From a virus: a stretch of DNA of 29,604 bases. The notes beneath the pieces are model-generated. The model was given only the letters and a program-made list of their open reading frames with translations, ran no database searches and was not told the origin of the DNA. The DNA lies in the IMG/VR virus record IMGVR_UViG_3300010370_000166, positions 1 through 29,604 of that record; one strand, 5' to 3'. The translations under genes and the position numbers were made by a program. Numbering within the stretch: the first letter of the stretch is position 1; every line of letters begins with the position of its first letter. Below, in pieces: positions 19,596-21,337 of this stretch.

Positions 19596-19784
19596 CTGCG
19601 GTCCGCAATCACCGTCCCGGACGTCTATTGACGCCCCCAAGGGAAAACGAGGTTATCTCAGGATGGCTTTGCTGGTTTACATAGTCCTGGGTGGTAAAAA
19701 TCCAAACCGGCACCAAGCCCCCACCTCTGCTCCGTCCTTATGAGGCGGTTTACGTGTTAAACGCTTTCTGGCGATGGGGCACTT
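19596..19784 (+). other. Unassigned inter-tRNA stretch with inverted repeats
   Basis: No open frame or tRNA is seen. Short complementary arms are CAGGA/TCCTG, GGTTT/AAACC, GTTTA/TAAAC and an outer GCCCC/GGGGC. It could be a folded RNA or a decayed insertion. I cannot assign it. Confidence 0.35.
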
Positions 19785-19874: not shown

Positions 19875-19910
19875 CGGGGTGTAGCGCAGCGGTAGCGCGC
19901 CTGTTTTGGG
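19875..19910 (+). pseudogene. Broken 5' half of a tRNA-Pro
   Basis: The sequence has a tRNA-Pro acceptor strand (CGGGGTG), D arm (GCGCAGCGGTAGCGC) and anticodon arm up to CCTGTTTTGGG, then leaves the tRNA pattern with no 3' anticodon stem. A weak T-arm-like GGTTCAAATT follows at about 19926. The same 11-mer CCTGTTTTGGG continues correctly 548 bases downstream in an intact tRNA-Pro, and the HNH gene lies between the two copies. Confidence 0.75.
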
Positions 19911-19945
19911 TTTAAAGATTTTAGCTGGTTCAAATTGATCTTGCT

Positions 19946-20434
19946 ATGATTCACCCAAATTCACTCGCTAACTTACAAAAGGGGAGAACTCGAAATGATC
20001 CAATAGTCCAATGTCCGTATTGTAATAAGCTTATTAAAAAGCCAAATTTGTCCAGACATTCTTCTAAATGCGTACAAAATCCTAAGTTTGGTACACCGTG
20101 TCCTAAGTGCGGAATTCTTAAGCATCCCAAAAAACAAACCTGTAGCACAGGTTGCTATAACAGTTTATTTAGATCAGGACTTAATAATCCTAACCATCAA
20201 AAGGGAAATAATTACAGAACAATTTGTTTTCACCACCATGAGAAGAAATGTTGCGTATGCGGTTTTGATCTAATTGTAGAAGTTCATCACTTAGATGAAA
20301 ATAAACACAATAATGATCCACTTAATCTCGTACCTCTCTGCCCTAATCATCATCAGGTCTGGCATTCAAAGCATAAATTTTTAATAGAAAATCAAATCTT
20401 GAATTACATTGAATCTAAACGGGATATCGCCTAA
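19946..20434 (+). CDS. HNH homing-type endonuclease
   Basis: 162 residues, AT-rich and unlike its neighbours. The N-terminus (HPNSLANLQKGRTRNDPIV) is followed by zinc knuckles (CPYCNKL, CPKCGIL) and the HNH core: CCVCGFDLIVEVHHLDENKH, then NLVPLCPNHHQVWHSKH, with metal and catalytic His residues. Free-standing HNH enzymes spread by cutting a target and being copied in. Its last codons (DIA then TAA) lie inside the 5' end of tRNA-Pro, and it starts 36 bases after the broken tRNA-Pro. The target was probably the tRNA-Pro anticodon region; that is inference. Confidence 0.9.
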   Translation: MIHPNSLANLQKGRTRNDPIVQCPYCNKLIKKPNLSRHSSKCVQNPKFGTPCPKCGILKHPKKQTCSTGCYNSLFRSGLNNPNHQKGNNYRTICFHHHEKKCCVCGFDLIVEVHHLDENKHNNDPLNLVPLCPNHHQVWHSKHKFLIENQILNYIESKRDIA

Positions 20435-20495
20435 CTTGGTCATGGCACCTGTTTTGGGAACAGGAATAATCTCAGTTCAAATCTGAGTATCCCGA
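20420..20495 (+). tRNA. trnP-UGG: tRNA-Pro(TGG)
   Basis: Acceptor CGGGATA/TATCCCG, anticodon loop TTTGGGA on CCTGT/ACAGG, T arm CTCAG-TTCAAAT-CTGAG. Positions 13-15 (TAA, 20432-20434) are the stop codon of the HNH gene. Confidence 0.95.
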
Positions 20496-20501
20496 CTCGG
20501 G

Positions 20502-20609
20502 AACGCCAAGGAACGGCGTTTTAAACGAAGGGTCCCCTAAGCCGCATCGTAGATGCACCCTCTGGTGGGTGATCGTAGGCGGATACCCTCGCCCAGGCGC
20601 CGAAGCGCC
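20502..20609 (+). ncRNA. Run of hairpins between tRNA-Pro and tRNA-Arg, possible folded RNA
   Basis: Hairpin AACGCC/GGCGTT (502-520) is followed by TTTT. Then GGGT-CC (530-535) faces GGATACCC (581-588) and GCC (541-543) faces GGC (578-580), enclosing GCATC-GTA-GATGC (544-556) and ACCC-TCTGGT-GGGT (557-570). A last hairpin GGCGC-CGAA-GCGCC is at 596-609 (coordinates +20000). There is no T-loop sequence, so it is not a tRNA. Its layout resembles the element after tRNA-Gly. Confidence 0.4.
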
Positions 20610-20717: not shown

Positions 20718-21275
20718 ATGAACAATTGCTTACAGTGCGGTGTAAACACAAAAAACCCCAAATTTTGTAGCAAATCTTGTTCGGCAAGTTGGAATAATAA
20801 AAAAGTTCCCAAGAAAAAGAAAAAAAGTTTAAAAATTGCAGAGTGCTTAAATTGTTCTAAAGTTTTTGAATATAGTTCCTATCACAATAAGGGAAAGTAT
20901 TGTTCAAATAGCTGTCAAGTTAAATTTCAAAGGTCTCAAATTATAGAAAAATGGAAACAAAATCCTAAAAGCTCTATAAGAGCCGGATACAAGATAAGCT
21001 CTGTTATAAAAAACTATCTTATAGAAAAAGCTGAGAGTTGTTGTTCTTTATGTGGATGGAGCGAAATAAACCAATATACTGGTAATGTACCGCTAGAAAT
21101 TCATCACATTGACGGCGATTGCTCGAATAACGCAGAAGAAAACTTGCAAGTATTATGCCCAAATTGTCATTCTCTCTCTCATAATTACAAGGGAGCAAAT
21201 AAATCAAAAGCAAGTTCAATTAGGTCCAAGTATTTTAAAGTAAAACAAAAAGAAAATAATGGGAGTATAGCTTAG
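20718..21275 (+). CDS. HNH homing-type endonuclease, second copy type
   Basis: 185 residues, AT-rich. Two zinc knuckle pairs occur at the N-terminus (CLQCGVN...FCSKSC and CLNCSKVF...YCSNSC), then a basic linker and the HNH core: CSLCGWSEINQY, LEIHHIDGDCSNNAEENLQV, LCPNCHSLSHNYKG. It is clearly a different protein from the HNH at 19946. A perfect hairpin GAAAGATA/TATCTTTC lies directly before the start. The last codons (SIA then TAG) fall inside tRNA-Ile, at the same tRNA positions as in the other HNH gene. Confidence 0.9.
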   Translation: MNNCLQCGVNTKNPKFCSKSCSASWNNKKVPKKKKKSLKIAECLNCSKVFEYSSYHNKGKYCSNSCQVKFQRSQIIEKWKQNPKSSIRAGYKISSVIKNYLIEKAESCCSLCGWSEINQYTGNVPLEIHHIDGDCSNNAEENLQVLCPNCHSLSHNYKGANKSKASSIRSKYFKVKQKENNGSIA

Positions 21276-21334
21276 ATGGTAAAAGCATTCGACTGATAAT
21301 CGAAAGAGCACTGGTTCGAATCCAGTTACTCCCA
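21261..21334 (+). tRNA. trnI-GAU: tRNA-Ile(GAT)
   Basis: Acceptor GGGAGTA/TACTCCC, anticodon loop CTGATAA on TTCGA/TCGAA, T arm ACTGG-TTCGAAT-CCAGT. Positions 13-15 (TAG) are the stop codon of the HNH gene. Confidence 0.95.
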
Positions 21335-21337
21335 CTC

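Follow-up and report, generated by a model that had tools for sequence, protein, structure and literature searches.

The window analyzed here is the whole 29,604-nt stretch of the virus record IMGVR_UViG_3300010370_000166, whose tRNAs, hli gene, and BLAST hits to Synechococcus phages point to a cyanophage. The locus of interest holds the broken front end of one proline tRNA gene, a small HNH gene, and an intact but different proline tRNA; further to the right, a second HNH gene ends in the same way inside tRNA-Ile(GAT). The features are collected in Table 1, in which designations of the type L086 stand for the loci in other contigs and phage genomes that were compared, fetched by similarity to these HNH genes or tRNAs.

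Table 1. Features of the tRNA-Pro locus and its surroundings in the window.
Position	Strand	Feature	Supporting observation
about 19600-19783		Sequence between tRNA-Asp and tRNA-Arg(CCT), with AAGCCCCCACCTCTG	Resembles the stretch left of tRNA-Pro in L196 and L244; possibly a second conserved RNA
19875-19910	+	Broken canonical tRNA-Pro, 36-nt 5' half ending after the anticodon (TTTTGGG): CGGGGTGTAGCGCAGCGGTAGCGCGCCTGTTTTGGG	One base different from the 5' half of the intact canonical tRNA-Pro of L196 and relatives; 94.6% over 37 nt to S-RIM50 tRNA-Pro
19911-19945	+	AT-rich leader between stub and HNH start; 3' half of the broken tRNA absent	Contains GGTTCAAAT, a T-loop-like 9-mer near the position expected in a tRNA (a decayed tRNA remnant or chance)
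19946-20434	+	HNH endonuclease gene (HNH1, 162 aa), entering the next tRNA by 15 nt; TAA at tRNA positions 13-15	PHROG HNH E 4e-9; homologues in the same position in L086 and L253
20420-20495	+	Intact type-2 tRNA-Pro(UGG), the proposed replacement tRNA	Called by ARAGORN at 20420-20496; 55 bits in Rfam tRNA
20497-20594	+	Conserved structured block right of tRNA-Pro, a candidate cyanophage RNA (hairpin around AAGGAA, then TTAAACGAAGGGTCCCC...CGTAGGCGGATACCCTCGCCC)	Shared with L112, L196, L201, L242, L244, L246, L249, L253; compensatory changes in 8 of 21 predicted pairs; no Rfam match at E<=1
20718-21275	+	Second HNH gene (HNH2, 185 aa), ending inside tRNA-Ile(GAT); sister module of a different HNH family	PHROG HNH E 1.5e-23; L112 has tRNA-Arg and tRNA-Ile adjacent without it
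21261-21335	+	tRNA-Ile(GAT) joined to HNH2	Called by ARAGORN; matches the tRNA-Ile of L112 at 55 of 74 positions

The arrangement described in the first-pass annotation, namely an AT-rich HNH gene between a tRNA-Pro cut after the anticodon and a complete tRNA-Pro with the same 11-mer into which the gene reads, is real. The stub follows an intact tRNA-Arg(CCT) and is neither called by ARAGORN nor listed as a tRNA by Rfam cmscan at E<=1. The 11-mer CCTGTTTTGGG occurs exactly twice in the window, at 19900 and 20448, and never on the other strand, while the GC content is 34.2% in the HNH ORF against 49.9% for the window. The HNH identity of HNH1 is weak in Pfam (16.6 bits, below the cut-off of 21) but clear in PHROGs, and the alignment shows conserved C..C, H, N, and C..H columns. 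HNH1 has its own start and stop codons, no intron family was matched in Rfam at E<=1, and HNH1 is the only substantial ORF between stub and tRNA, with no integrase or att repeat seen; the 11-mer repeat is the anticodon region that tRNA-Pro genes tend to share.

The two tRNA-Pro sequences belong to different lineages. Exact patterns for the left half and the right 3' half of the window found nothing in viral contigs, whereas looser patterns were productive. The intact tRNA matches Synechococcus phage S-SRM01 over its whole length (87.3%), a genome in which no HNH1 relative was found at E<=1, and a pattern for its D-arm and anticodon found at least 119 viral contigs, of which all complete ones share the same kind of 3' half and fully paired, covarying acceptor stems; this lineage is referred to here as type-2. 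In the type-2 loci (L016-L134), the stretch from D-arm to anticodon is almost invariant while the acceptor and T stems vary with covariation, and 23 loci have an HNH ORF of one of two families ending inside the tRNA. The 5' half of the stub was found in 57 contigs, where intact members carry a canonical 3' half with matching acceptor (for example, CGGGGTG...CACCCCG), the closest differing from the stub at one base, and none joins this 5' half to a type-2 3' half. Because the type-2 pattern fixes the 5' half, a rare hybrid with a type-2 3' half and another 5' half could have been missed, but the canonical search covers the hybrid predicted in the first-pass annotation, which is a single tRNA-Pro made of the left 5' half and the right 3' half.

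Three alleles are found at the same locus, which is marked by the structured block followed by tRNA-Arg(TCT). L196, L201, L244, L246, and L249 carry canonical tRNA-Pro there (a tRNA-Ala lies in between in four of them); L112 carries type-2 tRNA-Pro without HNH; and the window carries stub, HNH, and type-2. These relatives without HNH carry a wholly canonical or a wholly type-2 tRNA-Pro. L112 lacks both HNH genes, since its tRNA-Arg(TCT) and tRNA-Ile(GAT) are adjacent (2640-2788), forming an empty site for HNH2; no tRNA-Ile stub was found upstream of HNH2 in the window, and an HNH 64% identical to it in L135 is joined to tRNA-Ser(GCT) instead. The same module is present in another contig, L086, with its own canonical stub (CGGAATG..TTTGG), an HNH1-family gene, and type-2 tRNA-Pro, while L253 has the HNH and type-2 without a stub. 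A single-protein search with HNH1 missed L086 and L253, its best relatives.

The layout recurs with other tRNA isotypes and other HNH families. L207 and L240, two independent assemblies, carry a canonical tRNA-Pro stub, a gene of another HNH family, and an intact, different tRNA-Pro. L159 carries two cases, Ser and Leu; in the Ser case, the 3' half of the broken tRNA lies right after the intact tRNA-Ser(TGA), the stub and this outer 3' half pair 7 of 7 in the acceptor, and, joined, the halves are read as tRNA-Ser(TGA), so HNH plus a whole tRNA stands inside another tRNA. L272 (Leu) looks alike, with a poorer 5' part. For tRNA-Leu(TAG), L082, L063, L064, L068, and L033 are empty sites carrying one intact resident, whereas L122 is occupied: it keeps the first 23 nt of the resident, followed by HNH, a different tRNA-Leu(TAG) (47 matches in 81-82 nt), and the same right flank; the right flank matches in all, and the left flank best in L082 and L063. 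L066, L127, and L128 have the new tRNA without HNH, and L021 has it with a more decayed stub. L307 (Leu) has a further clear stub, and L244 (Leu), L208 (Val), L142 (Trp), and L279 (Leu) are probable cases. The stubs end in the anticodon loop in six cases but in the D-loop in L122, L244, and L272.

Among 335 loci, phmmer found 255 HNH ORFs, whereas a stricter HNH sequence pattern had recovered only 17. Of the 255, 180 have a downstream tRNA on the same strand, and 107 of these stop within -70..+15 nt of its start, with peaks at -14 and -9. In the comparison with other ORFs of the same loci, 57% of HNH ORFs (93/162) against 8% of other ORFs (35/416) stop within this interval, and 42% against 1% overlap the tRNA; since the loci were fetched by similarity to these HNH genes or tRNAs, the percentages describe this sample and not all phages. 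There are 88 distinct abutting pairs, in three main HNH families and a few small groups, of which only about ten keep a recognizable same-isotype stub. Nine pairs have an upstream 5' half scoring >=37 for the same amino acid as the downstream tRNA, whereas shuffling gives 2.55 on average and none of 10,000 shuffles reached nine. The same statistic computed by top-scoring isotype is noisy because D-arms are shared between isotypes; this version by the downstream tRNA's own amino acid is cleaner. This match of isotype and the recurrence in unrelated contigs show that the arrangement is more than chance.

The best reading, with a probability of roughly 0.7, is that the window holds the product of a tRNA replacement by a free-standing HNH homing cassette, that is, an HNH gene joined to a whole tRNA-Pro of the divergent type-2 lineage, standing where relatives have an intact canonical tRNA-Pro of which only the 5' half remains. 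The analysis itself establishes the structure of the cassette, the allele states, the isotype match, and the loss of part of the resident tRNA, and the history is well supported; cleavage, homing, resistance to cutting, and the function of the carried tRNA are inferred from sequence alone. In this view, during co-infection the HNH protein would cut the resident tRNA gene, and repair from the cassette-bearing genome would copy HNH plus the whole tRNA into the break (intronless homing with co-conversion), removing part of the resident tRNA and leaving a stub that decays. The carried tRNA would be different enough in sequence to escape cutting and, supplying the same anticodon, would keep that tRNA function for the phage, and the HNH gene could later be lost, leaving only the swapped tRNA. 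The overlap of the HNH reading frame with the tRNA physically ties the gene to its tRNA. However, the resident 3' half is gone in the window, so its own insertion is less clean than that of L159 and its reading leans on the relatives. In L208 and L244, the 3' part of the intact tRNA resembles the empty-site tRNA of relatives, so partial replacement is possible there, and type-2 tRNA-Pro also occurs beside a second HNH family without stubs, so some HNH genes may simply have landed in front of a tRNA.

The individual parts of this reading fit the literature. It has been reported that SegB of T-even phages, a free-standing endonuclease among phage tRNA genes, cuts inside tRNA genes, is linked to tRNAs, and promotes inheritance and amplification of the tRNA region (PMC13096335, PMC2988022); SegB, however, is a GIY-YIG enzyme lying between tRNA-Arg and tRNA-Ile, while here the gene is HNH, its frame ends inside the tRNA, and it stands inside the broken copy of the same isotype. 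Fungal mitochondrial mobile ORFs (Allomyces atp6; Glomus atp6, atp9, cox2, and nad3) are likewise inserted in a gene and bring a divergent replacement that keeps it functional, with the native remnant left beside it (PMC3630166), but those replace the 3' coding end of a protein gene and make a hybrid, whereas here a whole tRNA is supplied and the remnant is the 5' half. A divergent intact copy next to the remnant of the interrupted gene is seen in the window, L086, L122, and L159. Elements with a tyrosine integrase also use a tRNA gene as their site and restore its function, but they restore the 3' end by identical sequence. Synthetic cleave-and-rescue or home-and-rescue gene drives, in which a nuclease breaks a needed gene while the element carries a resistant copy, are man-made and comparable by logic only. 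HNH genes have been noted as common in tRNA arrays and suggested to spread them (PMC6409571, PMC5966550), but no description of stub-HNH-intact tRNA triples was found among the open-licence papers searched.

Among the alternatives, the strongest, although unlikely, is coincidental array decay, in which the ancestor carried both tRNA-Pro types, an HNH gene landed in front of type-2 tRNA-Pro, and the redundant canonical copy to its left lost its 3' half independently. L058, L073, L077, and L110 do carry two tRNA-Pro genes in one genome, type-2 exists at this locus without HNH in L112, and phage tRNA arrays contain decaying tRNAs (for example, nt-1). Nevertheless, the layout recurs with matching isotype (p<0.001), the tRNA of the L159 Ser case is nested between both halves of another, the relatives of L122 have only one tRNA-Leu at the site, and six stubs stop in the anticodon loop.

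The interpretation offered in the first-pass annotation, in which an element inserted at the anticodon loop carries its own replacement 5' half while the 3' half is the original one, is only partly supported. That an HNH element broke a tRNA-Pro at the anticodon loop, and that the locus keeps a tRNA-Pro, inferred to be working, that came with the element or its flank, is supported; that only a 5' half is carried and the 3' half is original is not supported and is contradicted for the window, because the type-2 halves occur together in at least 119 contigs and in S-SRM01, no hybrid was seen among the loci with the 5' half of the stub, and the true partner half in L159 lies outside the intact tRNA. 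The wobble pairing of CGGGGTG with TATCCCG, taken as a sign of an original 3' half, is correct (5 WC + 2 GU) but uninformative, since 21% of random combinations of canonical 5' and type-2 3' halves pair fully. The stub can also pair with the right 3' strand in L086 and L207, and perfectly in L142, but stub and inner 3' strand do not match in L122, L307, and L272. Relatives already carrying two adjacent tRNA-Pro genes, named beforehand as evidence against this model, were found only in part, as the two genes in L058, L073, L077, and L110 are not adjacent.

An assembly chimera is very unlikely: the window is a metagenomic contig and joins segments seen apart in relatives, but the HNH1-type-2 module is also in L086 and L253, and the L207 layout is in two independent assemblies. 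Excision of the HNH region as an intron or spacer is the weakest reading, for although the joined left half and right 3' half are called tRNA-Pro by ARAGORN, no Rfam intron family was matched at E<=1, an intact tRNA-Pro already exists, and the L122 stub cannot pair with the right 3' strand (2 WC + 2 GU).

Phage tRNA sets are usually explained by codon use or by escape from host tRNA-cutting defences. If HNH genes carry and swap whole tRNAs, part of this diversity is driven by selfish endonucleases, and tRNA variants can be exchanged one by one between phages. A broader hypothesis, about as likely as not, is that phage tRNA arrays are shaped by natural cleave-and-rescue homing elements, in which several HNH families each carry a whole, cut-resistant tRNA joined to the end of their gene, destroy the resident tRNA of the same isotype in rival phages by cutting it, often at the anticodon loop, and replace it with their own; this would be a natural example of the logic known from engineered gene drives.

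A link between HNH1 relatives and tRNA-Pro extends to jumbo phages. In L002, L004, L005, and L007 (Eneladusvirus, Mimasvirus, and a 366 kb IMGVR record), HNH1 relatives with a different N-terminus lie directly downstream of tRNA-Pro(TGG), but without a stub; in Serratia phage BF, that tRNA is annotated as a pseudo-tRNA. In addition, the leaders of the HNH genes in L122, L208, L129, and L051 contain ATAAATA, like T4 late promoters, and a hairpin such as GGTAGA...TCTACC just before the start codon, like the RBS hairpins of T4 homing endonucleases.
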